Virus record (IMG/VR): IMGVR_UViG_3300017917_001501
Location: 1-60,976 of that record
Strand: one strand, 5' to 3'
Origin: a virus
Length of the DNA: 60,976 bases
Position numbers and translations under genes: made by a program. The notes beneath the pieces were generated by a model. That model made no database searches. It was not told the DNA's origin and saw only the letters and a program-made list of their open reading frames with translations. Below, piece after piece: positions 5,188 through 59,898 of the stretch. How positions within the stretch are numbered: position 1 is the stretch's first letter; each line of letters opens with the position of its first letter.

Positions 5188-6486
5188 CTATTTATTATCT
5201 TCCATATTCTTAAAAATATTAAAAAGATTTTTATCTTTAGATTCTAAAGAATCGTATAGCTTTTTATTATATACGTCAAGAGCGGCACTGGTCAACCTAT
5301 CCCAACGTGCTGTAGTTTTTAGATATTCTGTCCAGTATTTTGATTGTAGTATAGGGTCTGGTGTTTGTTCAAGTAACTCTTGTATTTTAATTACGTTTGC
5401 TTTAAACACTTTATTTTTTTCGCTGTTTAAAAAACTATTTGACAGTACACCATTGATATCTTTTATTAGTTTAGGTCTTAGATATTCTGGCATGTACTGT
5501 ATGTCTAACCACTCGGGGCGATATAAAGTCAAATCGTAAGTAGGCGGATACTCAATAGCATGCTTCTCTGAAAACTCCTGGAAATATCTAATCCAGTCAG
5601 TTAAGTAAAAAATATTATTAATGGAAAATACAGGACTTAACATCATTTCAAAATTTGGGAATATTTTTGTATATTCAGCAAATTCATCTAGGTTTTTGCT
5701 CATCTTTTCCCATTTAACTGGCCAACGTACATAATGATAGTTGTCGCCTACACTATCAACACTTATAGATAATCTAACCTTGCGAAAATTCTGTGTCAGA
5801 TCTTCGTACAACGACCTTGTGGTTACTGTGCCATTAGTTGTAATCTGTAGTACAATTCTTTGACTGATTCCTTGTTGTTTAATCCAGTCAATTAATTTAT
5901 AGAAGTCGGGCTGTACTGTACTTTCACCGCCTGAAATAACAAGTATGACATTCTCATGTTTGGCTACCGCGTTGGTTAGTGTATCCAATACTGCATTCCA
6001 CAATCGTGGTTCTTCAGATAGTGTCCGACTTGGCTCATCAATTCCGTTCCATACTTTGTTGTATAAACTACTGATAGTTCCTGCACAACTTCTGCAGGCC
6101 ATGTTGCATAAACTTGACAGCGTAGCCTGCACATAGTATTCGTCAATCTCTCTGCGGTGTATAAGTTTCAGTAGTCGATCTGTGTCAAAGCCCAGCAGTG
6201 GGCGCATACGTTCACTAATTTTGCCATCATCCTCACATTTGTAACAGTGTTGGCAGAGTCTTTCTTCAGCTATACCAGCTTCAATCTTTTCTTTAAGTTG
6301 TTCTATTGGAGCAAACACATCATCTGAATATTCTTTGACAAGATTGCAGCAAGGGCTTATGCCATCTTCCATAAAAAATACCTGTGTGTTTGCCCAGGGG
6401 AACACACAAAAGTGTCGGTTTTTGAGTGCCCAGGCATAGCGATCTGTGTCGATCATTGATATATCAACGATAGGTATTGATTTCAT
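5188..6486 (-). CDS. Radical SAM protein, twitch/SPASM-like (432 aa)
   Basis: Predicted radical SAM enzyme. The canonical CxxxCxxC is Cys127, Cys131, Cys134 (CNMACRSC), with the SAM-binding GGE at 186-188. Before the core there are extra cysteines (Cys27, Cys46-Cys47, Cys78, Cys81, Cys84) that resemble auxiliary cluster ligands placed N-terminally rather than C-terminally. The same arrangement recurs in the next gene and in those at 14381 and 51896. Substrate unknown; peptide or sugar modification are both possible. The message may be leaderless: ACTAAATA ends 5 nt before the ATG. Neighbours are iscU/iscA downstream. Confidence 0.88.
   Translation of the reverse strand: MKSIPIVDISMIDTDRYAWALKNRHFCVFPWANTQVFFMEDGISPCCNLVKEYSDDVFAPIEQLKEKIEAGIAEERLCQHCYKCEDDGKISERMRPLLGFDTDRLLKLIHRREIDEYYVQATLSSLCNMACRSCAGTISSLYNKVWNGIDEPSRTLSEEPRLWNAVLDTLTNAVAKHENVILVISGGESTVQPDFYKLIDWIKQQGISQRIVLQITTNGTVTTRSLYEDLTQNFRKVRLSISVDSVGDNYHYVRWPVKWEKMSKNLDEFAEYTKIFPNFEMMLSPVFSINNIFYLTDWIRYFQEFSEKHAIEYPPTYDLTLYRPEWLDIQYMPEYLRPKLIKDINGVLSNSFLNSEKNKVFKANVIKIQELLEQTPDPILQSKYWTEYLKTTARWDRLTSAALDVYNKKLYDSLESKDKNLFNIFKNMEDNK
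5189..5196 (-). promoter_or_regulatory. Late promoter AATAAATA for the isc cassette
   Basis: NATAAATA-type element on the minus strand inside the end of the radical SAM gene, about 34 nt upstream of the iscU ATG, with GGAG in the leader. It suggests that Fe-S assembly proteins are made late. Confidence 0.6.
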
Positions 6487-6491
6487 AATGA

Positions 6492-6499
6492 TATTTAGT
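6492..6499 (-). promoter_or_regulatory. Late-type element ACTAAATA, leaderless geometry
   Basis: Lies exactly 5 nt before the ATG of the radical SAM gene at 6486. In T4 late promoters the octamer spans about -13 to -6, so the A of ATG would be +1. Confidence 0.45.
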
Positions 6500-7673
6500 A
6501 GTAGGGTTTGTACTGCGGAACAATATCAGGAAGATGTTCGCCGCGCATAGCATCATGTATTTTGGCGTACTCGATGAACTTTTTAAATCCTACACTATTA
6601 AAGTTGTCCTGCTCCAATATGCTAATACTATCAGACAATATAGCACGATTTTCAGGACTGAGTTCAAGTGCTGTTTTTAGTATCTCTATTGCTTCTGCTC
6701 TGAGCTCATTGGGTAGGCAATTTAAAAATAATTCTTCTTCCACTACTACCGGCTGTATTGATAATTTCTTGGCTAGTTTAGGATAGCGTTGCTGAAAAAA
6801 CTTAACTAAATCTGCTATGTTAAAAATATTATACATATTTAAAACACTATTAATGGTGATATGTATGTTATCCAACTGGTAGACAGTGTCTAAATTCTTT
6901 ATAACCGTATCAAATTTTGATCCGTTGCGTATATAATCGTTGACTGTGTCTGTACCGTCTATACTAACAATAAGATCTATTGTTTTAAATTTACCAAATA
7001 GTTTTAATATGTGATCGCTTAACACTGTTAAATTTGTATTAATAATTAAATCAGTGTCGCTGTCCTGCCAAGACTCTAAGAAATCTAAATTGTACTGCTC
7101 AATTAGCGGTTCGCCACCGGCAAAATACAGTCTGAATAAATGTTCATCTACTACCGGAAAAGCGTGATTATATTTTTGTTTGATCTGTCCAACATAAAAT
7201 TTAGCATCTCTTAACGACTCGGGTATTTTATTGTATTCAGCTTGTATAGCACTGCTGTTAGCTGGGTTGCAGGTTCTACAGCGTAGGTTACATACATTAC
7301 TATAACGTATGTCTAACATCTGCGGTAATAGATTTTCGTCCTGCTGAAATTTTTTAATTACAGCTACAGCTTGACTGCGTTTATTCTCGTCAGATAACCA
7401 GCCTTGTGTTTCTGCGTAACCGGGTGAGGTTAGATTGTGTTCTGTTAATTTTTTACAACCTGCGCATTCTGTAGGGTATTCTCCATTAAGAAATGCCTGT
7501 CGTATTCTACGATACTGCTCAGTATTAAAAGAATCTACGTTATCAGTGCCCTGATCAATGTCAAGTCCGCCTGTATGACAGCATAACTTATAATTTCCAT
7601 CATACCAGAGCGTCTGACGTGTGAAAGGAAGTATGCAGAAATGTCTGCTTGCTAGTAGATTATCAACATTCAT
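6495..7673 (-). CDS. Radical SAM protein, twitch/SPASM-like (392 aa)
   Basis: Second radical SAM enzyme of the tandem pair. The Fe-S motif is Cys128, Cys132, Cys135 (CNLRCRTC); GGE is at 186-188 (YFAGGEPLI). N-terminal cysteines at 13, 31-32, 70 and 73 repeat the pattern of the neighbouring gene, so the two look like diverged paralogues. The partial radical SAM barrel continues through strands such as LIINTNLT and IDLIVSIDGTD. It is separated from the downstream paralogue by 8 nt. Substrate unknown; a heterodimer or sequential action on one substrate is possible but is inference. Confidence 0.88.
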   Translation of the reverse strand: MNVDNLLASRHFCILPFTRQTLWYDGNYKLCCHTGGLDIDQGTDNVDSFNTEQYRRIRQAFLNGEYPTECAGCKKLTEHNLTSPGYAETQGWLSDENKRSQAVAVIKKFQQDENLLPQMLDIRYSNVCNLRCRTCNPANSSAIQAEYNKIPESLRDAKFYVGQIKQKYNHAFPVVDEHLFRLYFAGGEPLIEQYNLDFLESWQDSDTDLIINTNLTVLSDHILKLFGKFKTIDLIVSIDGTDTVNDYIRNGSKFDTVIKNLDTVYQLDNIHITINSVLNMYNIFNIADLVKFFQQRYPKLAKKLSIQPVVVEEELFLNCLPNELRAEAIEILKTALELSPENRAILSDSISILEQDNFNSVGFKKFIEYAKIHDAMRGEHLPDIVPQYKPYY

Positions 7674-14380: not shown

Positions 14381-15520
14381 TTATAATAATTTGCTCCACT
14401 CAGGACATAATTTAGAAAAGTCATTGCCACGTACTAGGTCAATGGCATTCACTGCTTTCCAAAATGGTGCATTATCCATTTTTTCTATCACAGAAAGACT
14501 TTCAACTAAGTCTATCAGTTGTGGATAATTTTTAAACTTTTCTAATAGAATATATTTGATATCGGGACTAATACTTCGAATACCAAAACTTCCAATTACT
14601 TTTTGAAAAATTAAATTAGTTGGATCGCCGTAACGATTGACTGTGTATTTGTTGTTATACCAATCAACTAGTTCATCAAGATAATACAAATTTAAATAAC
14701 CCCAGGAACAATTTATATTGTACATATAATTGTCTGGGGCATTAGTATTGTACCAATCTAAATTATTACATACTTCTTGCCATTTGGCACCAGTGCGTTG
14801 ATATTCAAATCTGGTACCTACGTCATCGATACTAAAGTAGAGTTCAACTAATTTGCATTTTTCCCATAATGCTAGTACGTCATCGGATACTTTAACAGTT
14901 CCATTGGTATTGTAAAATACTCTAACATCACTGAGTCCACGTACTTCATCAATATTTTTAAGTAAATTTATGTGGCTTGAGGACATTAAAGGTTCGCCAC
15001 CACCATGAAAATGTACATTCACAATGTTTTTAAGTTGCTCATTGTTAGCAATTTCAATTTGATTAAATTTGTCAAACTTAAAAACACTGACATCAGCATC
15101 AGGATGTATTTTTTCAAAATCTGGTATCCAAGTAGTACTATGACGTGGTCCACAAATCATACATTTTAAATTGCAAAGATTGCCAACGCTGTAATCAAGA
15201 CTTTGTGGGGCATCTATGTCAATGTTACTATCATGATGAAATTGTTCCCAAGATTTTTTTGCGCCCCGGCGTCGACTTTCTAAACCAGAATTTTCAGCAT
15301 TATAACAGTATTGGCAACCTGGTATTAGTTGATTATTTTCCACTGCGATTTTTATTTGTTTACGCCCTGAGCTAGTCCACGCTTTACCAAGGTCAAGTGT
15401 GTTATCTGTACTAGTGTATCCTTGATAAAAGCTACAAGGATTATAATTAATGGATCCGTTAAATGACCATACAGAAATATTTTTGTATATTTCGTAACAA
15501 AAATATTTTTTATCTTCCAT
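14381..15520 (-). CDS. Radical SAM protein, twitch/SPASM-like (379 aa)
   Basis: Third radical SAM enzyme. CxxxCxxC is Cys116, Cys120, Cys123 (CNLKCMIC); GGGE at 173-176. Upstream cysteines at 29, 69 and 72 match the N-terminal auxiliary-type pattern of the other phage paralogues. It converges on the plus-strand pair 13046-14355 with a 25-nt gap that shows no clear terminator. Substrate unknown. Confidence 0.86.
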   Translation of the reverse strand: MEDKKYFCYEIYKNISVWSFNGSINYNPCSFYQGYTSTDNTLDLGKAWTSSGRKQIKIAVENNQLIPGCQYCYNAENSGLESRRRGAKKSWEQFHHDSNIDIDAPQSLDYSVGNLCNLKCMICGPRHSTTWIPDFEKIHPDADVSVFKFDKFNQIEIANNEQLKNIVNVHFHGGGEPLMSSSHINLLKNIDEVRGLSDVRVFYNTNGTVKVSDDVLALWEKCKLVELYFSIDDVGTRFEYQRTGAKWQEVCNNLDWYNTNAPDNYMYNINCSWGYLNLYYLDELVDWYNNKYTVNRYGDPTNLIFQKVIGSFGIRSISPDIKYILLEKFKNYPQLIDLVESLSVIEKMDNAPFWKAVNAIDLVRGNDFSKLCPEWSKLL

Positions 15521-31019: not shown

Positions 31020-32630
31020 TTAATCAAGTCCTGTAATCTCACCTTTAGAATTGATATCAATACGTTCTGCGTTGGGTACTGTGGGCAAGCCGGGCATAGT
31101 CATAATATTACCGCAGACTGCTACAATAAATTCAGCACCGCTGCATAGTCTCAACTCACGAACTGTAAGCGTATGCCACTGTGTTGCGGCTTCTTTATTT
31201 GCAGGATCATCGCTAAAACTGCTCTGTGTTTTAGCAATACACACAGGATAGTGCCCATAATCTCGCTGTAGTTCATCTAACCTGGCACTGACTTTAGCAT
31301 CCATTTGTACACCATTGGCACCGTAGATGTTACGTGCTACAGTGTTAAGTTTATCCCATAAAGTATCCGTATCTTTGTAGGTCAATGCCATGGGCTTGTT
31401 ACTGCCGTCAATAGCCATAATCACTTCGTGTGCTAATTCTACTGCACCTTTACCGCCATCAGCAAAGTGTGTACATTCAACTGCTTCGATATCAAACGTA
31501 TCACGTACATGGCTAATAAGACGCTGCACTTCTGTGTCTGTGTCGTCTGCAAAACGGTTAACAGCAACCACACAAGGCAGGTTATAGTGCGTTTTAATGT
31601 TGGCTATGTGCTTATCCAAGTTATCATAGTTACCCCAGTGTTTAACTGCCCTTACAGTAGCAACTAGCACCGCTACATCGGGCTGTAAACCGCTTTTACG
31701 GCACTTGATATTAATGAACTTTTCAGCACCTAAATCGGCGCCAAATCCTGCTTCTGTGACTACATAATCAGCAAGACGTAAGCCTAATTTAGTAGCAATT
31801 ACACTGTTGCAACCGTGTGCTATGTTAGCAAAAGGACCGCCATGTACCAGCGCAGGAGTACCCTCTAGCGTCTGCACTAGGTTAGGTTTTACAGCATCTT
31901 TTAACAAGGCTGCCATAGCACCATGTGCTTTTAAATCTGCGGCTGTAACAGGCTTTTTATCTAGAGTATATCCTACAGTAATCTTACCCAAACGCTTTTT
32001 TAAGTCTTTAAAGTCGTTGGCGAGGCACAGTATAGCCATTACTTCTGACGCTACTACAATGTCAAATCCTGTTTGACGGGTAACACTATTATGGGCTCCT
32101 AGACCTACACAAACGTCGCGTAACGCACGATCGTTCATGTCCGATACTCTGCGCCATGTGATATTATTTGTATCTAAATTTAACTTGTTACCCCAGTGTA
32201 AATGATTATCAATTAAACTAGCTAACAGGTTATGTGCTGAAGCAACTGCATGGAAATCGCCTGTAAAGTGTAGGTTGATATCTTCCATTGGGTACACCTG
32301 AGCATACCCACCGCCAGTAGCACCACCTTTCATACCAAACACTGGACCTAATGCTGGTTCACGTAAGCAGACAATGCTGTCATACTTTAGTTTACGTAAC
32401 CCATCTGCGAGTCCAATGGTTGTTGTGGTCTTACCTTCACCTGCAGGAGTGGGTGTTACAGCGGTAACTAGAATTAGTTTGCCGTTGGGTTTGTTTTTGA
32501 TAGACGCAAAATCAACCTTGGCCTTGTAACTACCATAGGGTTCAATGGCATCTTTAATTTTAAGTTTTTTTGCTATGTCTTGAACTGTTTTGGCTTTATA
32601 GCTCTGATTGATTTTGATGTCTGATTTCAT
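31020..32630 (-). CDS. fhs: Formate-tetrahydrofolate ligase
   Basis: Makes 10-formyl-THF from formate, ATP and THF, feeding purine, formyl-Met-tRNA and one-carbon synthesis. P-loop TPAGEGKT at 61-68, followed by the family's typical [20 protein letters not shown] and [12 protein letters not shown] blocks. The 536-aa length is close to the usual about 555. It begins 3 nt after tonB and ends at a strong terminator. In a phage it would supply formyl groups (initiator tRNA) and nucleotide precursors; a methylotrophic or formate-rich host is suggested but not shown. Confidence 0.95.
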
Positions 32631-32633
32631 TGA

Positions 32634-33266
32634 CTAACTTTCAAGTGTAAATCTCACTGGTACCGTAACTTCAGCAACTACAGCGTGATTGTTAAATTTT
32701 GCTGGCACAAACCGCCAGGTTTTTACTGCCCGCAAAGCACTTTGATCTAATAGTTCATACCCACTAGATTCTGATACTGCAACTACTGCGGCTTCTCCTG
32801 TAGCAGATACAGTAACACGTAACAATACACGACCTTGTTCACCTCTACGACGAGCTAGTGGCGGATACTCTGGTATTGGATTGTGTAAGTATTCGGCACT
32901 AAAACTAGGCGGAATAAACTCCTCTACTGCTTTAACTGGTTGTGCTACTACAGCATGTGCCACTTGAGTATTTATAGGCTCCGCTACTGCTGGAGTAGAA
33001 TCTACTGCGGGTGCTGCAGCAGGTGCGGCTACTATTGTTTTAACCACAGTAGGCGCAGGCTTGCTCACAGGTTTCGACACAGGAGGTGTATTAGTCTGTG
33101 TAGTTTTATGTGGTTGTAGTTCTATCAACCTAACTGTAATAGGTTCTGTGTGTTCTTTTACAGGCTTTGGCGGAGTATAGGCACTAACAGCCCAGCCTAA
33201 TACTAGGGCATGGGCTGTGATGCTAAAGGCCATGGGCCAAATTTTTTGTAAACGCGAATAAGACAT
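32634..33266 (-). CDS. tonB: TonB energy-transducing protein
   Basis: Couples the proton motive force to outer-membrane receptors for iron chelates and other ligands. Complete architecture: short cytoplasmic start, one membrane segment with the SxxxH-type motif (residues about 12-30, SITAHALVLGWAVS), a Pro/Ala/Val-rich periplasmic linker (about 35-120) and a C-terminal TonB domain (NPIPEYPPLARRRGEQG ... VSESSGYELLDQSALRAVKTW). ExbB/ExbD must come from the host. Start set at the ATG at 33266: TGTAAATA ends exactly 5 nt before it; the upstream TTG (33287) is less convincing. Confidence 0.9.
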   Translation of the reverse strand: MSYSRLQKIWPMAFSITAHALVLGWAVSAYTPPKPVKEHTEPITVRLIELQPHKTTQTNTPPVSKPVSKPAPTVVKTIVAAPAAAPAVDSTPAVAEPINTQVAHAVVAQPVKAVEEFIPPSFSAEYLHNPIPEYPPLARRRGEQGRVLLRVTVSATGEAAVVAVSESSGYELLDQSALRAVKTWRFVPAKFNNHAVVAEVTVPVRFTLES

Positions 33267-33271
33267 ATTCT

Positions 33272-33279
33272 TATTTACA
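33272..33279 (-). promoter_or_regulatory. Late-type element TGTAAATA, leaderless geometry
   Basis: Ends 5 nt before the tonB ATG; no ribosome site is present. A similar CTTAAATA (33292-33299) lies 20 nt further upstream. Confidence 0.4.
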
Positions 33280-36714: not shown

Positions 36715-36743
36715 ATTATACGCTGGATTTACCAAAAAGTCAA
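36715..36743 (-). promoter_or_regulatory. Early promoter TTGACT-N17-TATAAT
   Basis: -35 at 36738-36743, -10 at 36715-36720, 17-nt spacer. The spacer begins with TTTTGGTAAA, which is also found in the spacer of the promoter at 36326. Confidence 0.85.
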
Positions 36744-37483
36744 CCGTTTTTTGTCTGAATTTGTCGGATAATTGAGCCCCAGATGTCAAAACGATAACTA
36801 CCCCAACTGTTATCGTAATCGCCGGGTTTTGCGTGATGATTATTGTGCAGGCCTGCGCCCAATAACCAAAGATCGCACCAAAAATTATTAGTGCTGGTAT
36901 TTTCTAACTTATTGTCTTTAGTGCCGCGGCTATGGCAAACAACATTAACTAGAAAGTTGGTCCATAGTGTAGCCCAGACATTTACAGCATAATACCAAAG
37001 AGCTGTAGCAGAAACTAGTGCTAGTGCCAACATGATAATTGCTTGTATTTTAAAATAGTGTCGGTGTTGAAACACTAACCAAGGGTCGCTGATTATATCG
37101 CGCACCAGTCTACCATTAAACTCAGTGGTATTGTGTTGATAGAATATTGTACCCAAAAGATTTGTGTGTGGATTGTGCGGATCACGGTCGGTATCGCTGT
37201 ACATGTGGTGCAATCTGTGTACACCAACAAATGCCAGTATACTACCTTCGCCGGATAAGGTATTTAAAACAATAATTACTCGTTCCCATAGTCGGCTAGT
37301 ACAAAAACTACGATGACTCCACAAACGATGTGCACCGACCTCACTGCCTATGCCTTTGGTCAAGAAGTAGAACACAAAGATTAAAAAAGGAGCTTCCCAA
37401 CCTAGATCTATATAGAACGGCAGTGCAACAATTAAAATTGCACTGATAACTATTAGCAATAGATGTTTGTGTTTATAATCCAT
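36740..37483 (-). CDS. Membrane fatty-acid (acyl-CoA/acyl-lipid) desaturase
   Basis: Diiron desaturase that introduces a double bond into acyl chains at the inner membrane, probably altering host membrane fluidity during infection. The three histidine boxes are present: HRLWSH (52-57), HRLHH (89-93) and HNNHH (213-217), with paired membrane segments around residues 7-45 and 148-185. At 247 aa it is a short, core-only version, as in other marine phages. Another iron-dependent enzyme of this window. Confidence 0.92.
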   Translation of the reverse strand: MDYKHKHLLLIVISAILIVALPFYIDLGWEAPFLIFVFYFLTKGIGSEVGAHRLWSHRSFCTSRLWERVIIVLNTLSGEGSILAFVGVHRLHHMYSDTDRDPHNPHTNLLGTIFYQHNTTEFNGRLVRDIISDPWLVFQHRHYFKIQAIIMLALALVSATALWYYAVNVWATLWTNFLVNVVCHSRGTKDNKLENTSTNNFWCDLWLLGAGLHNNHHAKPGDYDNSWGSYRFDIWGSIIRQIQTKNG

Positions 37484-45520: not shown

Positions 45521-46810
45521 TTAATATCTATACGTGTCTGGCTTATACGGCCCAACTATTTCAACACCAATGTACTTTGCTTGCTCTGGTGTAAGTTCAG
45601 TTAGGTGTGCACCAATTTGAGCTAGGTGTAGTTTTGCAACCTTTTCATCTAACTGTTTAGGTAACAAATAAAGTTCACCAATGTTGTAGTTTTTCCAGTT
45701 GTTGTACATTTCAATCTGTGCTAGAACTTGATTGGTAAAACTGTTTGACATTACGTAACTTGGATGACCTGTAGCACAGCCTAGGTTAACCAATCGTCCT
45801 TTGGCTAACAAAATAATGCGTTTGCCATCAGGAAAAATTACATGATCAACCTGTGGTTTAATTTCTTCCCACTCATACTGCTCAAGACTAGCTACATCAA
45901 TTTCACTGTCAAAGTGACCAATGTTACAGACGATAGCATTGTGTTTCATCTTGGTCATGTGTTCGTGTGTAATGACATCAATGTTACCTGTGGCTGTGAC
46001 AAATATATGTGCATGCTCTGCGGCAAAGTCCATGGTAGTTACATAGTAGCCTTCCATTGCGGCCTGTAGTGCGCAGATTGGGTCAATTTCTGTTACCCAC
46101 ACACGTGCACCTAGTCCACGTAGACTTGCAGCACTGCCTTTGCCTACATCACCGTAGCCTGCTACCACAGCAATCTTACCAGCAATCATACTGTCAGTGG
46201 CACGTTTGATACCATCAACTAAACTTTCACGACAGCCGTACAAGTTATCAAATTTAGTTTTAGTTACACTATCATTAACATTGATAGCACGCATTTTGAA
46301 CTCACTTTTTTCGATTGCTTCGCGTATTTTGTGTATACCAGTGGTAGTTTCTTCTGTAACACCAATGATGCCATCTAACAGACCAGGGTGGTGTTTGTGT
46401 ATGTACCATGTTAAATCGTGACCATCATCTAAAATCATATTAGGACGCCAGTTATCTGGTCCACTTAGTGTAGCTTCAATGCACTGCCAGTACTCTTCTT
46501 CAGTCTCACCTTTCCAGGCAAACACAGGAATACCTTTAGCAGCCAAGTAAGCAGCCGCATGATCCTGTGTGCTAAAGATATTACAACTTGACCAGCGTAC
46601 TTCTGCGCCCAATGCTACTAGTGTATCTATCAATACTGCTGTTTGAATAGTCATGTGTAGACTACCACTGATACGTGCACCTTTTAAAGGTTGTTGTTCA
46701 CGATACTCTTTGCGTACAGCAATCAACCCTGGCATTTCTGTTTCTGCGATTGCTACTTCTTTACGGCCCCATTCGGCTAGGCCAATATCTTTTACTTTAT
46801 AATCGGTCAT
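45521..46810 (-). CDS. ahcY: Adenosylhomocysteinase
   Basis: Hydrolyses S-adenosylhomocysteine to adenosine and homocysteine, relieving product inhibition of methyltransferases. Full-length (429 aa) with the NAD motif [13 protein letters not shown] (about 214-226), the substrate-binding [15 protein letters not shown] near the N-terminus and [14 protein letters not shown] near the C-terminus. Three methyltransferases in the adjacent cassette are likely beneficiaries. Probably in one operon with the small genes 46814-47260. Unusual in a phage. Confidence 0.96.
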
Positions 46811-47344: not shown

Positions 47345-48508
47345 TTAGAAGAATAAGATAGCACCCGCTGAGTAACTGTCGCTTTCGTTTTGTAAACCGT
47401 TGTGTGATTTACTTTGAATGCGATTGTATTCAGCAACTAAGTTTAAGTTCTTAGTCAATGGATGGTATGCACCAACAGTGTAACGTTCGTTGAAGTCAAC
47501 TAGGTTAGCTGTATCTGTACTACCAGTACGGTCAAGGTTGCTACGACCAAATGCTGCACCAAGTTTGGTCTTGGTTGGCAATACGTATGTAGCTTGTAAG
47601 TAGTAACCATCGCTGTTACGACGTGAACCTGTGGCATCTACACCATCAGCACCAAACAATGTTGTACCAGCGCCTTTACCATTGTAGTAGTAAGCTGTTA
47701 CACCTGCTGGGCCTAGGTTAGCTGTACCACCAATGTCCCAAGCGTAGGATGTGTATGTACCTGCGGTTAGACTGTTAACTTTGTAGTTAGCAGCACTGGT
47801 CCATAGTTTACCATTTACACCAGCTACATTGTAGTCATAGTTAACTTTACCTTCGTAACCAAAGTTGTCTTGATATAGATCGTTGTTGCTTGTTTGGTTA
47901 GGGTTAGTAATAGCTACTGTTGCACTTAGGCCATTCCAGTTTGGTGTTGTGTAGGCAATTTGACCTTTCCATGCTGGATAGATGTAACCACTACCAATAC
48001 CACCTAAGGTTGTTGTGGCACCGCTGATTCTAGCACCGCCGCCTACACCTAACAATGTCATGTCGTTTAAGATAGCATCGCTACCAAATACGCCTAGGTC
48101 TTTACCTAGTTTTACACTACCCCAGCTCTTGTCGCCAAAGCTAATATATGCTTGACGATTTAGTGGAGTTAGTTCATCACCTGCTCTTGAATTGTCACTT
48201 ACGTTAGGTTGGAAGCTGATTGTAAATTCTACGTCTAGATCATTTTGACGTGATTTACCAGTGAAGCCAATCCATGCTGGCAATAGGCCAGTGTTGATAC
48301 CACGTGCGTGAGTGTTACCTTGTGCGTCTTGCTTGGTAGCAATACCGCCAACGATGTCGTTGTTATTCTTTGCGTTAGTAACTGTAGCGTAGGCGTTAAC
48401 GTTACCGTTAATGTCTAAGGTCCATTCACCAGCTGGAATAACGATACCAGCGTTTGCTGTAGACGCAAACAGACCTGCCATCATAGTTGCTAATAATGTT
48501 TTCTTCAT
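47345..48508 (-). CDS. Outer-membrane porin (Gram-negative type)
   Basis: A 387-aa porin with a clear Sec signal peptide (KKTLLATMMAGLFASTANA, cleavage after about residue 20), alternating amphipathic strands throughout and a C-terminal Phe (SAGAILFF) for BAM recognition. The style (INGNVNAYATVT start, Gly-rich extracellular loops) fits the porins of Betaproteobacteria. It has its own leader with AGGAG and its own terminator. It could replace host porins, admit small solutes or iron chelates, or block superinfection, as the porin of lambdoid phage PA-2 does; these are alternatives. Confidence 0.9.
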   Translation of the reverse strand: MKKTLLATMMAGLFASTANAGIVIPAGEWTLDINGNVNAYATVTNAKNNNDIVGGIATKQDAQGNTHARGINTGLLPAWIGFTGKSRQNDLDVEFTISFQPNVSDNSRAGDELTPLNRQAYISFGDKSWGSVKLGKDLGVFGSDAILNDMTLLGVGGGARISGATTTLGGIGSGYIYPAWKGQIAYTTPNWNGLSATVAITNPNQTSNNDLYQDNFGYEGKVNYDYNVAGVNGKLWTSAANYKVNSLTAGTYTSYAWDIGGTANLGPAGVTAYYYNGKGAGTTLFGADGVDATGSRRNSDGYYLQATYVLPTKTKLGAAFGRSNLDRTGSTDTANLVDFNERYTVGAYHPLTKNLNLVAEYNRIQSKSHNGLQNESDSYSAGAILFF

Positions 48509-50846: not shown

Positions 50847-51193
50847 AAATCATAATCCTTTAAATCACTGTGATCTGCGCCAAGTGCTTCCCAGGCAATA
50901 GTCTTTTGAAACGCTTGATACGCAGGACCTTTGTTTAACCAACTGGCTACTGCTTCTTCACTCCCCCAACTACCCATTGGAGCAAACTCCTGTAACCATA
51001 GTAGGTATTTGCCTAAGATTGGTTTATTCCAAGTGTCGGCACAACTGACTACTTCAGTCCATGGGCGGTCACATAGTAAGGCTGTTAAGAAACTGCCAGG
51101 TGATAAAGCATGTAAGAAATAGTTCTTAAGTGCTTCTTGACTCATATCTGGCAAGTGGCTCATACCATCTACCCAATCAAATTTAGTCTTCAT
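50843..51193 (-). CDS. Hypothetical early protein (116 aa)
   Basis: Trp-rich helical protein, no recognised motif. Overlaps the upstream gene by 11 nt and the downstream gene by 4 nt. Co-transcribed from the promoter at 51459-51487. Confidence 0.6.
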   Translation of the reverse strand: MKTKFDWVDGMSHLPDMSQEALKNYFLHALSPGSFLTALLCDRPWTEVVSCADTWNKPILGKYLLWLQEFAPMGSWGSEEAVASWLNKGPAYQAFQKTIAWEALGADHSDLKDYDF

Positions 51194-51452
51194 ATTGCCA
51201 CCCTTCTAATTTAATATTTGTTCTGCGATTTATTTCGCGTAACAGCCCTTCGTAGGCCTTGGTTTTTTCTTGACTAGCACGTTCCAACATGTTAACACAG
51301 TTAAGGATATGGCTAGTTTCCATTTCTTCAATAGGTATTAATTCACGCTCTTTTGTGAGCCAATAATCGTCATGTAGTTCACGAAATTTCTTAAAATCTA
51401 TGTCGTTTGGAGTACTTAATATAGTCCAAACTTTTTTCTGTTGCTTGTTCAT
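51183..51452 (-). CDS. Hypothetical early protein (89 aa)
   Basis: Charged, helical. First gene of the early operon with the phosphatase. The promoter's -10 (TAAAAT) is exactly 6 nt before the ATG and no ribosome site can fit, so a leaderless mRNA is predicted. Confidence 0.62.
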   Translation of the reverse strand: MNKQQKKVWTILSTPNDIDFKKFRELHDDYWLTKERELIPIEEMETSHILNCVNMLERASQEKTKAYEGLLREINRRTNIKLEGWQYED

Positions 51453-51458
51453 TTTCGT

Positions 51459-51487
51459 ATTTTAACACCTTTTAACTAAAATGTCAA
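51459..51487 (-). promoter_or_regulatory. Early promoter TTGACA-N17-TAAAAT, leaderless geometry
   Basis: -35 at 51482-51487, -10 at 51459-51464, 17-nt spacer, 6 nt to the ATG at 51452. The 3' end of tRNA-His is one base upstream of the -35. Confidence 0.75.
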
Positions 51488-51655: not shown

Positions 51656-51730
51656 TGGTGGTGATAGTTAGAGTTGAACTAACACTGTACTCCGTATGAA
51701 GGAGGCGCACTGCCATTATGCTATATCACC
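51656..51730 (-). tRNA. tRNA with CAT anticodon (elongator Met or Ile2)
   Basis: Acceptor GGTGATA/TATCACC is fully paired, unlike the initiator at 56454. Anticodon loop TTCATAC. CAT can be Met or, if lysidinylated, Ile(AUA). Confidence 0.85.
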
Positions 51731-51895: not shown

Positions 51896-53233
51896 TTATT
51901 GCTCATTGCGAGCTTGATTAAATTGATCTACTAACCAAGGCCACAGATCTTGCCAATGTGTGCCTCTGCGTCGATCCATTTCGTTGAGATATGTTTCTAA
52001 CATTAAGATTTTTTTAGGATCTCTAGGTGTTTTTTCTATGCTGTCCGCAATACCCTGCATGTAACCTTTGTAGTTACGTTGATACTGTGTGTTAGTAGGC
52101 ATTGTATCTAAAATACGTTGCATATCTTCTGTAAAAACACCTGCACCAAACCACAGTGGATTTAACTGTGTTGGTTCCATTACGTGCATAAAACTTATAC
52201 AAATATGACGTGTTGGGTCTCTTTGTTTGTCCAATTCATTTAATTTATGTATAAGTTCAGGCAAAGTTTTAATACTCAATGGTGTAATTGTTAGATTAAC
52301 ATTTAGTACTATCCATTGATCAAACGCACCTTGCGCTACATAGTTAAAGTTTCTTTCCCATTCAGCTAAGTTTAATCCCCAGCGTAGATATTCTGCCTGA
52401 GGCCCCCAACAGTCTAGACTAGCACTTAAGTTTACACGTTTGATTTTCTTTTCATCAACCATGCGTTTTAAACGCTGTATATACCCAACAAATCTTTTAT
52501 GGTCTATTTTTAAATTTGTTACAAAGGTCAATAGTAGGTCTGGATTTGGATAGTTGTCCCAATGATCAAGAACCATGTCAAACTCTTTTTGGAAGAAAGG
52601 TTCCCCGCCGAGCATACCAAAATTCCAAATTTTATGTCCGTGATTGCGCAACCATTCAAACAGTTTATCGCGCATAGCATCGTAACGATCTTGGTCTCTA
52701 CGCCAACTTGGATGAACTAAGATTCCGTCTTCTTCTGCATTAAACCTACGATTTTCTTCTTCCCACATGGTACTAAAATGCGGGCCGCAGTATAAGCAGG
52801 CCATGTTACATACGTTGTTAAAATAAACTTCAACAATAGTAGGTGTTACTTCCACTGCCTCGGGATTTTCTAGTAGTTCTGGTGGTAGTACGTTTGTGTG
52901 ATTTTCAAAACACCCATCTAAATTTTGTAGCTGTACTAGTCTATCACTAATACCACCTTTGTCTTCGATGTGCTTACAGTAGGTGCATCCACTGATACCA
53001 TACTTGTTTGTTTCACTTTCTTCAGGCCACCTACCTGCTAGCATACGTCTACGGTCGTCTAGTTTTTTAGGCAAGTTATGAAACTGATCAAAATTTTCAG
53101 GTCCAAAGGAATTGTGTACAGTTCTATGACAACTAGCAGTTGTGCCTTTGTTTAGATATATAGTGCTCCAAGACCATTTAAGGTAGCAGGATGTTTCACT
53201 CTTAATTGGCCACACTCGTTTTTTATCTGTCAT
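51896..53233 (-). CDS. Radical SAM protein, twitch/SPASM-like (445 aa)
   Basis: Fourth radical SAM gene. CxxxCxxC is Cys142, Cys146, Cys149 (CNMACLYC), with MLGGEPFF following near residue 215. N-terminal Cys35, Cys83 and Cys86 repeat the auxiliary pattern of the paralogues. Its start overlaps the end of a 2OG-Fe(II) oxygenase gene by 11 nt, a pairing that suggests both act on the same substrate. Two iron enzymes fused in one operon between tRNA groups. Confidence 0.86.
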   Translation of the reverse strand: MTDKKRVWPIKSETSCYLKWSWSTIYLNKGTTASCHRTVHNSFGPENFDQFHNLPKKLDDRRRMLAGRWPEESETNKYGISGCTYCKHIEDKGGISDRLVQLQNLDGCFENHTNVLPPELLENPEAVEVTPTIVEVYFNNVCNMACLYCGPHFSTMWEEENRRFNAEEDGILVHPSWRRDQDRYDAMRDKLFEWLRNHGHKIWNFGMLGGEPFFQKEFDMVLDHWDNYPNPDLLLTFVTNLKIDHKRFVGYIQRLKRMVDEKKIKRVNLSASLDCWGPQAEYLRWGLNLAEWERNFNYVAQGAFDQWIVLNVNLTITPLSIKTLPELIHKLNELDKQRDPTRHICISFMHVMEPTQLNPLWFGAGVFTEDMQRILDTMPTNTQYQRNYKGYMQGIADSIEKTPRDPKKILMLETYLNEMDRRRGTHWQDLWPWLVDQFNQARNEQ

Positions 53234-53849
53234 ATTCTTCCGGAGCTTTGATTGTTAATCCTATTAATGCACTGTATCTGTCATAGTTGCTGGCATTTTT
53301 ACCTGTGTGCCAATTACAGTAATCGTTAACTGCTAGCCAACCAGTACCAAACCCATTTTTTATTACCATCGGATCGCTATACTGTCTATCAGTGTAAAAA
53401 GTTGTGGCTACATCAGAGTCATTGTATTCGTTAAAGTATATCATACCAGCACAGACTAATCTACGATAGTCATTGTGCGGCTCTAAATGAAATCCCGGTT
53501 TATCTAACATATATTCCATGTGCCAACTAGTCCACTTACGCATTTGATCTTTGTCTAAACTCCATAGTCCTTGAAATGCTGGATTAAATGAGTAGAGCAT
53601 GTCTAAAACTTGATCTCGCACTTGATCAGAGTTAACAAAGTTCATAATTTTAATAAGCACCGGACTCTTAGGATTTTTTAACTTGTAGCGTAAGTTCCAG
53701 TTAGGATTTTCATGCCCCATGGGCGTCCCGTAGGTCCAACTTTCCCAGGTTTCGTTTTCTAACTCACGGCGTATAGTTTTGTAATCTACACCAAAATCAT
53801 AGGAAATGTTTGTAGTAAAAAATCTTTCACTGTTAAATGTTATTTGCAT
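53223..53849 (-). CDS. 2OG-Fe(II) oxygenase-like protein (208 aa)
   Basis: Double-stranded beta-helix dioxygenase pattern: H125-N-D127 in HLEPHNDYRR, distal His181 and Arg191 in NWHTGKNASNYDRYSALIGLTI. Probably hydroxylates a protein, peptide or sugar using 2-oxoglutarate and O2. TATAAATA ends exactly 5 nt before the ATG, so a leaderless late message is predicted. Coupled to the radical SAM gene downstream. Confidence 0.78.
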   Translation of the reverse strand: MQITFNSERFFTTNISYDFGVDYKTIRRELENETWESWTYGTPMGHENPNWNLRYKLKNPKSPVLIKIMNFVNSDQVRDQVLDMLYSFNPAFQGLWSLDKDQMRKWTSWHMEYMLDKPGFHLEPHNDYRRLVCAGMIYFNEYNDSDVATTFYTDRQYSDPMVIKNGFGTGWLAVNDYCNWHTGKNASNYDRYSALIGLTIKAPEEYDR

Positions 53850-53854
53850 AAATC

Positions 53855-53862
53855 TATTTATA
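53855..53862 (-). promoter_or_regulatory. Late promoter TATAAATA, leaderless geometry
   Basis: Perfect T4-type late element ending 5 nt before the ATG at 53849; the best example of the leaderless late arrangement. Confidence 0.65.
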
Positions 53863-54121: not shown

Positions 54122-54212
54122 TGGTCCTCCTGCCAGGACTCGAACCTGGATCAGCCAATTATCTGTTGCTACGGAGTATAAGCCCGCTGTTTTGCCATTA
54201 AACTACAGGAGG
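54122..54212 (-). tRNA. tRNA with TAT anticodon (Ile-like) and about 21-nt variable region
   Basis: Acceptor CCTCCTG/CAGGAGG, D arm GTTT/AAAC, anticodon loop CTTATAC on a 5-bp stem, T-arm CCAGG/CCTGG, CCA encoded. The variable region is unusually long for Ile. An alternative pairing (CAGC/GCTG) would place the extra bases in the anticodon arm. Confidence 0.7.
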
Positions 54213-54680: not shown

Positions 54681-54920
54681 GTTCGGGCGGTTTTCTACGC
54701 TCTCCTAACCTCGAATACATAAAGTCGTAGCTTTCTCCCGTTTGATCAGTAACCCAAATGTTTCTATCAACAAATTCGTGCGCACTCCTTTGTTGTGATT
54801 TCCTTTCTGATCTCAGTAGCTTTAGTGTCGTAACACAAGGTTTTTCGCTAACAGTGGCTTCACAGCAACCGTTTCGCTCTGGACTCTACTTACCTTAAAC
54901 CGACTGGTATTAGGAAATAC
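54681..54920 (-). other. 240-bp insert in the tRNA array, possible gene remnant
   Basis: No tRNA found here. On the minus strand one frame stays open after a TAG for about 73 codons and reads protein-like in its second half (AHEFVDRNIWVTDQTGESYD), but it lacks ATG/GTG/TTG and ends inside tRNA-Ser(TGA). It could be a decayed gene or tRNA precursor spacer. Confidence 0.3.
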
Positions 54921-55909: not shown

Positions 55910-56125
55910 GTGTAAGTGTCCTGCTACCAGCACCACCTGGCCCAGAACTGAGTCGTTACCCTGTCCGTCTATCAGCTTATGGAGTAGATAGCAAACACCC
56001 ACGATACTTTCAAGGCTCCCGGATAGTGGGACTTGTGGTCTTCGCTAGCGAAATCGTGTGTACCCTGGCGTTATGGTATTGCCAATGACCCACTTTCTAT
56101 AAGGTAAAAGTGTAAACCCAGTGTT
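55910..56125 (-). ncRNA. Hairpin-rich insert in the tRNA array, candidate structured RNA
   Basis: 216 bp without tRNA or credible gene. Several short inverted repeats: CTATC/GATAG, CCCAC/GTGGG, the palindrome TTCGCTAGCGAA, TGGC/GCCA and CACTTT/AAAGTG. Could be a structured RNA cut from the tRNA precursor. Confidence 0.35.
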
Positions 56126-56453: not shown

Positions 56454-56528
56454 TGGTTGCGGGTGCTGGAATCGAACCAGCGATCTCCAGGTTATGAGCC
56501 TGGCGAGTTTCCTCTTCTCCAACCCGCG
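56454..56528 (-). tRNA. Initiator tRNA-fMet(CAT)
   Basis: Begins CGCGGGT and ends ACCCGCA-ACCA, so base 1 (C) cannot pair with base 72 (A): the hallmark of bacterial initiator tRNA. A11-T24 is also present. Anticodon loop CTCATAA; the anticodon stem is CCAGG/CCTGG, so one of the three usual G-C pairs (29-41) is A-T. First gene of the operon driven by the perfect promoter at 56547-56575. Confidence 0.9.
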
Positions 56529-56546
56529 TCTGTAACTTATCTATCT

Positions 56547-56575
56547 ATTATATAGTAACTGTTTCTGTTTGTCAA
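56547..56575 (-). promoter_or_regulatory. Consensus promoter TTGACA-N17-TATAAT for tRNA operon
   Basis: Both hexamers match the sigma70 consensus exactly (-35 at 56570-56575, -10 at 56547-56552), 17-nt spacer. The initiator tRNA starts about 12 nt after the expected +1. Confidence 0.93.
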
Positions 56576-57863: not shown

Positions 57864-59885
57864 TTAACTTGAAATTGGAATAAACTTTTTGTCTTTGTAG
57901 TGCTGATTTAATGCTATTAGATTTTTTTCACGTGTTGCAGTTGATACAGTTTCAACACAGTTATCGGCCCAACCCGACTTAGTTTCCGAAGTAATTACAG
58001 TGTCTAACGATTCTGCACTCCAAATACCATTTCCTATCCAGGAAAAATTAAAACTTTTAGTGCCTTCCATCCAGCGTTCACCAGAGTGAACAAACTCATG
58101 TTTAAAGTCTGCTGTAAAGTTTCCTTGATCATCTATTTTAAAATAACAATTATATGTATGTTTAGCCGCGTCGGGCGCTAGGTACGTACCAAACATATGA
58201 CAATCTGATTTAGGATCAGCTTTGATACTGAATTCAAATGCACCTTTAGCTAGCCACACGGATCTTAAAAACGACCATGTCTCATTTACCACACTGTTAG
58301 CAAATGAACCCAAATTAGTCTCAATGATATAGTAATTAAAGTTTTCAATTCTTATATCACTGACTAGATTTGGATTATCAAATATTAAAGAGTAATACTC
58401 TTTTAATTTGCCATGTTCTTGAGCATTTTTAATAGTACCATGTTCTTTACATAGAAACAGCCAGATATTAAAATACTTCAAACGCATTAGTCTATTAACT
58501 ACAGTGCTGGCCCAGTCTAACTTCCACCACCCTCCAGCAAAAAACTCACCAAATGGGCATACATCATATCTGTGACGATTAAAACTAAAATCAGTTTGAG
58601 GAATGTCACTAAAAGTAGTTCCTGGTGATATTCCATCTATGTTAGATCGATTATTCCACACTAATCCTAAACTTTCAGCAGTGGATTGAAAATCTTCATT
58701 TGGAAAACCTACGATCCAGGTAACAAATACTTCGATACCAGACTTTTTACAGTCTCTGAGATTATTGTTAACTGCTTCAACTGTTATCTTTTTGTTCATC
58801 AGGTCTAGAACTTTTTGACTTCCACTTTCTACACCAAAACTTAAATTTATACAGCCGCCATTTTTAAGATCCATAAAGTAATCAAGATCCATACGACCGT
58901 CACATCTTGCATTACCTAACCATCTTATTCGAATATTTCTTTCAACAAGTCCTAAAGCAAATGCACGTAACTCTGCTAAATTACCGTTGAGTAAACTATC
59001 AATGAACCATATAGTATCTATGTTATATCTTTTTTTGTTTACAGCAACTTCGGTGATTAGTTTACTAGCTTGTCTATCGCGATATTTCCAAAACCATGTT
59101 TCTGTACAGAAACTACACTGCGCTACACACCCTCTGCTTAACTCTGCACTAATACCACCAGCCCATTTATATATACTGAGATCGTAATCTGAATAGTCCG
59201 GTGTTGGTAAAGTATCTAACTCTATTCTATAGGCTTCATATGTTCCACCTAACTTGACTGGCATTTCAACACCGTTTTCAAAATTATTCAGAAAATCAAG
59301 TAATACCTGCTCACCTTCACCAGCAACCCAGTGATTAATTTCTGGCCACGGTGTAAATTCTGGATGGTGACACGAAGGTCCACCAGTGATAATTGTAACA
59401 TCAGGTAATACTTTTTTTACTTCTTTACTGAGCCACTCTGACGGTATTACATTAGTGTCGTACAAACTGAATCCAACAATATCAGGCTTTTCGTCTACTA
59501 TACGTTGTAAGTATACTTTAAGATGCTGTTCTATATGTGGATGCACAGAATCCCAATAATGATTCTTATCAGTCCATTTCCAATAATTAATTGAGTGCCA
59601 TAGAGAATCCAGCTCTACATCTTTCATAATATGATGTAGCTCGCCGTTGATATCAAATACCGCGGTTGGGTATCCAGCTTTTCTTGTCACTCCAGCTAAA
59701 CGAGCCAGATTATACGGTGGAAAATAAATCCCCCAAGACGGCAATATACATAGTACTAATTTAGTGTTTTTTGTACTGGTGGAATATTCTATTTGCTTTA
59801 GATATTTTCGCCGAGGTTTGAACGTTGCCTGCGCATTTGCTGGCACTAAATTTTCTGCTAACCATGTATCTTTATTCATTGACAT
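57864..59885 (-). CDS. B12-binding-type radical SAM protein (673 aa)
   Basis: Fifth radical SAM gene, of a different class. Residues about 40-200 form a Rossmann-like cobalamin-binding domain (LPSWGIYFPPYNLARLAGVTRKAG ... DIVGFSLYD ... TIITGGPSCHH ... WVAGEGE); the core CxxxCxxC is Cys253, Cys257, Cys260 (CVAQCSFC); LGNARCDGRMDLDYF and FGVESGSQKVLDLMNK are typical of the B12 radical SAM (BchE/Elp3-like) barrel. The C-terminal 200 residues (about 460-673) are an extra domain. No DxHxxG motif is seen, so cobalamin, if bound, would be base-off without His. AATAAATA ends 5 nt before the ATG. Confidence 0.88.
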   Translation of the reverse strand: MSMNKDTWLAENLVPANAQATFKPRRKYLKQIEYSTSTKNTKLVLCILPSWGIYFPPYNLARLAGVTRKAGYPTAVFDINGELHHIMKDVELDSLWHSINYWKWTDKNHYWDSVHPHIEQHLKVYLQRIVDEKPDIVGFSLYDTNVIPSEWLSKEVKKVLPDVTIITGGPSCHHPEFTPWPEINHWVAGEGEQVLLDFLNNFENGVEMPVKLGGTYEAYRIELDTLPTPDYSDYDLSIYKWAGGISAELSRGCVAQCSFCTETWFWKYRDRQASKLITEVAVNKKRYNIDTIWFIDSLLNGNLAELRAFALGLVERNIRIRWLGNARCDGRMDLDYFMDLKNGGCINLSFGVESGSQKVLDLMNKKITVEAVNNNLRDCKKSGIEVFVTWIVGFPNEDFQSTAESLGLVWNNRSNIDGISPGTTFSDIPQTDFSFNRHRYDVCPFGEFFAGGWWKLDWASTVVNRLMRLKYFNIWLFLCKEHGTIKNAQEHGKLKEYYSLIFDNPNLVSDIRIENFNYYIIETNLGSFANSVVNETWSFLRSVWLAKGAFEFSIKADPKSDCHMFGTYLAPDAAKHTYNCYFKIDDQGNFTADFKHEFVHSGERWMEGTKSFNFSWIGNGIWSAESLDTVITSETKSGWADNCVETVSTATREKNLIALNQHYKDKKFIPISS

Positions 59886-59890
59886 GCAAA

Positions 59891-59898
59891 TATTTATT
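59891..59898 (-). promoter_or_regulatory. Late promoter AATAAATA, leaderless geometry
   Basis: Ends exactly 5 nt before the ATG of the B12-type radical SAM gene. Confidence 0.55.

Follow-up and report, generated by a model that had tools for sequence, protein, structure and literature searches.

An initiator tRNA gene lies within a complete tRNA set in a fragment of a T4-like phage, and we consider it probable (about 0.62) that this tRNA is one member of a set that sustains the initiator pool during infection. The window, by which we mean the whole stretch of DNA analysed, is a 60,976-base IMG/VR record of a freshwater bacterial virus. It encodes a UvsW-like helicase, a DnaB-like helicase, a primase, part of a ribonucleotide reductase, and a DUF6267 protein whose relatives occur in T4-like cyanophages and in Methylophilales phage Melnitz. 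The genome relatives found for its porin (53-60% identical) all come from Methylophilaceae or betaproteobacterial assemblies, and from this one porin and the relatedness to Melnitz the host is likely to belong to the Methylophilaceae. Besides the porin, which is of Gram-negative type, the phage carries host-type genes for S-adenosylhomocysteine hydrolase (45521-46810) and a fatty acid desaturase (36740-37483). Five radical SAM proteins, one of them B12-binding, are also encoded in the 61-kb fragment (5188-7673, 14381-15520, 51896-53233 and 57864-59885).

Table 1. Positions of the features discussed, numbered from the first base of the window
Feature	Position	Strand	Remarks
Initiator-type tRNA-Met (CAT)	56454..56528	-	75 nt including encoded CCA; ARAGORN, RF00005, determinants tabulated
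Elongator-type tRNA-Met (CAT)	51656..51730	-	Paired 1:72 (G1-C72), Y11-R24 (C11-G24); ARAGORN
Sigma70-type promoter TTGACA-N17-TATAAT	56547..56575	-	-10 ends 18 nt before tRNA; conserved in relatives
Array of 27 tRNA genes, all 20 amino acids	50167..60464	-	Interrupted by ORFs; ARAGORN, Rfam
Porin	47345..48508	-	Genome relatives Methylophilaceae or betaproteobacterial; host clue
89-aa ORF, predicted leaderless	51183..51487 (ORF 51183-51452)	-	ATG 6 nt behind TTGACA-N17-TAAAAT
208-aa ORF, predicted leaderless late mRNA	53223..53862	-	Late-type element TATAAATA 5 nt before ATG
673-aa B12-binding/radical SAM protein, predicted leaderless	57864..59898	-	AATAAATA 5 nt before ATG
TonB C-terminal domain protein, predicted leaderless	32634..33279	-	TGTAAATA 5 nt before ATG at 33266
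Formate-tetrahydrofolate ligase (Fhs), 536 aa, complete	31020..32630	-	Pfam PF01268, E=1.4e-235

The initiator tRNA gene

The preliminary description had proposed a tRNA-fMet with a C1 x A72 mismatch and a CAT anticodon at 56454-56528, and had suggested a covariance-model search as a check. Both ARAGORN and Rfam RF00005 (60.3 bits; cut-off 29) call a tRNA at this place on the minus strand, with the sequence CGCGGGTTGGAGAAGAGGAAACTCGCCAGGCTCATAACCTGGAGATCGCTGGTTCGATTCCAGCACCCGCAACCA. Judged from that sequence, the gene is a real and complete initiator-type tRNA. Positions 1 and 72 form no Watson-Crick pair (C1 x A72), and G2-C71, C3-G70 and A11-U24 are present; these four features are among those listed as determining formylation and initiator identity (PMC7949028). 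The CAU anticodon lies within a CUCAUAA loop (CTCATAA in the DNA), and A73 and an encoded CCA complete the acceptor end. Its identity to E. coli tRNA-fMet is 77%, and that to the elongator tRNA-Met of the same phage is 49%.

Bacterial tRNA-fMet from E. coli and the Methylophilaceae shares the 1:72 mismatch, G2-C71, C3-G70, A11-U24, CTCATAA, A73 and CCA, whereas the phage tRNA is 75-77% identical to these molecules overall, has a shorter D-loop, and carries A29-U41 rather than G29-C41. Recent acquisition from the likely host is ruled out by an identity of only 75% to Methylophilaceae initiators, which, unlike the window's tRNA, keep a GGG/CCC anticodon stem. In the phage stem, A29-U41 is followed by G30-C40 and G31-C39, and two of the three pairs of the three-GC rule are therefore kept. 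The replacement of one G-C pair by A29-T41, pointed out earlier, is thus present but not unusual: A29-U41 initiators occur in 62 of 299 Pseudomonadota genomes, versus 78 with G29-C41 (same template), so the strict three-GC form does not define the initiator family. The same frequency rules out A29-U41 as a special phage adaptation.

The initiator heads a block of tRNA genes within the array, whose 27 tRNAs serve all 20 amino acids and include separate initiator and elongator tRNA-Met genes. One further member is a 91-nt tRNA of class II shape with a UAU anticodon and a long variable arm (54122-54212, minus strand), which ARAGORN calls as tRNA-Ile. It has counterparts in related loci (L168 3245-3336, L171 2557-2647 and L173 2331-2421), and these tRNAs resemble tRNA-Ile genes of Vibrio phages.

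Initiator tRNAs in other phages

The earlier description of initiator tRNAs as rare in phages is reasonable, yet such genes occur in many unrelated groups of known phages. At E<=1e-3, 176 of 50,697 GenBank phage records match the window's tRNA, and E. coli tRNA-fMet has matches in 345, in overlapping lists that include some apparent host contamination. Phage initiator tRNAs are accordingly uncommon (~1% of records or less at this sensitivity) but already known. Initiator-like tRNAs that we inspected occur in Caulobacter phage CcrSC (annotated there as tRNA-fMet), Pseudomonas phage D3, mycobacteriophage Myrna, Lak, Pectobacterium phage CBB, Sinorhizobium phage phiN3 and phiAS5. Those of the first six resemble the window's tRNA in being initiator-like tRNA-Met genes, often within large arrays, but the phages are unrelated and several have U1-A72 or other variants at 1:72. 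No perfect consensus promoter lies within 70 nt upstream of the inspected initiators of unrelated phages.

Shigella phage Sf14 carries 26 tRNAs for 19 amino acids, and its near-complete set likewise suggests a late reliance on phage tRNAs (PMC12482277). Sf14 is without tRNA-fMet, whereas the array in the window serves all 20 amino acids and includes an initiator. Phage Melnitz is a T4-like relative that infects a Methylophilales host (PMC9004378), but the complete Melnitz genome has only four tRNAs, named Arg, Arg, Leu and Trp (PMC9004378), with no initiator, and encodes a tmRNA.

Conservation in related arrays

Related loci were gathered from IMG/VR by means of Fhs, a radical SAM gene and a conserved RNA element. 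A near-exact pattern of the 56454-56528 tRNA has no other match in IMG/VR, and the comparison of initiators therein comprised 12 intact distinct versions, including the window's own; the other 11 are 69-92% identical to it. Many loci share the array order Pro, Tyr, Lys, Asp, initiator, Thr, Glu, Leu, Gly, element, Ala, Val, Asn, Ile, and the synteny of Asp, promoter, initiator, Thr/Glu, Leu and Gly is retained in many arrays. Among the records examined, initiators occur only alongside large tRNA sets (at least 13 tRNAs where record length allows).

The 12 intact initiators all deviate from a standard pair at 1:72, eight with C-A, three with A-A and one with C-U, and they share G2-C71, C3-G70, G4-C69, G30-C40, A73 and the CTCATAA loop. 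A purine at 11 with a pyrimidine at 24 is found in 11 of them, the exception being U11-A24 in locus L270. Determinants are thus kept while the rest of the molecule drifts, a pattern typical of selection for initiator identity. L170 has a more distant initiator, with U1-A72 and C33. The initiator of L168 is a degenerate copy at which ARAGORN makes no call, and so the gene is not indispensable.

Other parts of the molecule vary. Half of the 12 phage initiators have a pyrimidine31-G39 combination in place of the G31-C39 that the window's tRNA retains, an arrangement seen in two of 299 Pseudomonadota genomes (closely similar template). As read from their sequences, the initiators of the L265 group, L167 and L198 appear to divide the acceptor and T stems into 8+4 rather than 7+5 pairs; the fold of the L198 initiator has a four-pair T stem. 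A G-G mismatch at pair 7 is observed in the L265, L167 and L198 initiators with this apparent split.

In four relatives, a conserved basic protein of ~53 amino acids (MAVKKANPMQTRTGKPRLGP...) is encoded directly behind the initiator tRNA (L164 8379-8537, minus strand; L168 523-681; L198 1179-1334; L199 1548-1703). This protein was not found in the window, and it has no PHROG match.

The promoter ahead of the initiator

The initiator had also been described as the first gene behind a perfect TTGACA-N17-TATAAT promoter, and the exact sequence is present, with TTGACA at 56575-56570, TATAAT at 56552-56547 and a 17-nt spacer. Two perfect consensus sites occur in the window versus 0.2 expected (first-order Markov model; spacers of 15-19 permitted). 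In 9 of 13 arrays the initiator lies behind a promoter with 10-12 of the 12 bases matching, in six of these within 25 nt, whereas no comparable promoter lies near the initiator in the other four. In relatives, promoters that are perfect or nearly so stand ahead of the initiator with different spacers, so the arrangement is not due to chance. It is also not unique to the initiator: 87 perfect promoters of the TTGACA/TATAAT type occur in 28 partly overlapping loci, and this consensus is the standard promoter of the phage family.

Leaderless messages and formylation

The preliminary description linked the initiator to leaderless messages and to Fhs. Some genes are indeed predicted to be leaderless from their promoter-to-ATG spacing (Table 1), but nothing ties this tRNA specifically to their messages. 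The promoter-to-ATG arrangement of the 51183 ORF is conserved in L164, L167 and L169, at ~51% protein identity, and relatives of the 208-aa ORF retain a similar late-element spacing. Late-type elements resembling TATAAATA stand 5 nt before the ATG at 7 of 45 starts in the window, versus at most four at any other gap (at least 6/8 match), and one of the seven is the promoter of the 51183 ORF itself. Stretches of T4 and cyanophage S-WAM1 have no such peak (at least 7/8 match), and relatives with an initiator of their own show the peak only weakly.

Leaderless candidates are a minority. Six strong promoters are aimed at an ORF start, and four of these give leaders of 29-33 nt, at least three with a clear Shine-Dalgarno (SD) sequence. 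SD sequences of at least 4 bases precede up to 27 of 55 genes versus a background of 15%, the count being an upper estimate because starts were selected in favour of an SD. Across the family, SD-led genes or tRNAs follow most of the 87 perfect promoters. A link between the initiator tRNA and leaderless messages is therefore possible but weak.

Fhs is encoded, as previously stated, and is 53-58% identical to Fhs of the Methylophilaceae, but the suggested role in formylation is not supported. The enzyme occurs in 60 of 80 Methylophilaceae genomes, and neither the formyltransferase Fmt (PF00551) nor a deformylase (PF01327) was found in the records of ten relatives, some of them fragments; in the window itself, Pfam coverage was of the larger ORFs only. 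Phage Fhs thus need not concern formylation, and these results do not support its membership in a phage formylation module. Methylophilaceae live on one-carbon compounds, and 10-formyl-THF feeds purine synthesis too.

Possible roles of the phage initiator

If the initiator belongs to a general supply of tRNAs, host RNA polymerase would start at the consensus promoter that is standard in this phage and transcribe the initiator ahead of the other genes in its tRNA block. Host enzymes would process the transcript, host MetRS would charge it and host Fmt would formylate it. The phage set could then sustain translation, including initiation, once an infected cell's own tRNA genes or tRNAs have been lost or diluted; that infection creates a need for extra initiator tRNA is our assumption. 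Only one match to the initiator was obtained in each of six Methylophilaceae or related genomes, so strong transcription of the phage copy could affect dosage, and might markedly enlarge the initiator pool in streamlined Methylophilaceae, the likely hosts.

The extra initiator, with Fhs raising the formyl donor, might instead give leaderless phage messages a specific advantage over those of the host on 70S ribosomes. Extra fMet-tRNA is reported to boost leaderless translation strongly and canonical translation only mildly (PMC9031893), and both the peak of late-type elements 5 nt before ATG and the spacing ahead of the 51183 ORF, conserved in four phages, are in keeping with such a role. We nevertheless regard it as unlikely, given the small number of candidates, the predominance of SD genes and tRNAs behind strong promoters, the weakness of the peak in initiator-bearing relatives, and the distribution of Fmt and Fhs described above; moreover, SD-led initiation would draw on the same initiator. 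Since the array holds 27 tRNAs and serves all 20 amino acids, with the initiator as one member, a general supply role suffices without leaderless mRNAs. It is also rather improbable that a fast-evolving initiator, with G31-C39 relaxed in half of the versions and an apparent 8+4 split in some, has been tuned to bias initiation toward phage messages, including leaderless ones.

Changes in the stem could alternatively confer resistance to nucleases such as VapC, the phage initiator replacing host initiator that these destroy. Cleavage of initiator tRNA by VapC is cited in passages of PMC10264068 and PMC12482277, the anticodon stem of the phage initiator differs from that of the host, and 36 of the 80 Methylophilaceae sampled have PIN domains. 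The anticodon loop, however, is identical to the host's, the sampled small Methylophilaceae (~1.2-1.4 Mb), including the porin-related ones, are without a PIN domain match, and phages generally avoid tRNA-fMet where VapC targets it (PMC10264068), all of which makes a counter-defence role improbable. We find it still harder to believe that the initiator is a decaying or neutral passenger of the array. tRNA arrays turn over quickly and the L168 copy is degenerate, but 12 divergent versions keep the initiator determinants and most have a promoter ahead of them.

Conserved noncoding RNAs in the arrays

A 216-nt spacer in the tRNA array (55910-56125, minus strand) has a core pattern that recurs in ~26 IMG/VR stretches and is 73-81% conserved across arrays. 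It has no credible Rfam match and no match among GenBank phages. In an alignment of 15 sequences, 16 of 40 pairs are changed on both sides, and the covariation score is 0.323 versus 0.154 for shuffles and at most 0.085 for slid controls. The single window sequence folds no better than its shuffles, so the case for a structure rests on covariation. From these comparisons of sequence, the spacer looks like a candidate for a new family of structured RNAs in phage tRNA arrays, and it is the most novel by-product of the analysis.

A second conserved noncoding stretch is a leader of ~150 nt that precedes the initiator in L164 (8629-8852), L198 (861-1085), L282 and L284. Its ~60-nt core recurs at up to three places per phage, and in the window it is found at 54700-54743 (minus strand), between tRNA-Ser and tRNA-Ile.

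Implications

The six initiators that have lost G31-C39 provide natural variants for the three-GC rule of P-site selection, given how seldom their pattern is seen in Pseudomonadota. Expression and formylation of the phage initiator, if they occur, would make this phage group a natural example of a viral initiation tRNA combined with a full elongator set, and would allow a test of how independent of host tRNAs phage translation can become.
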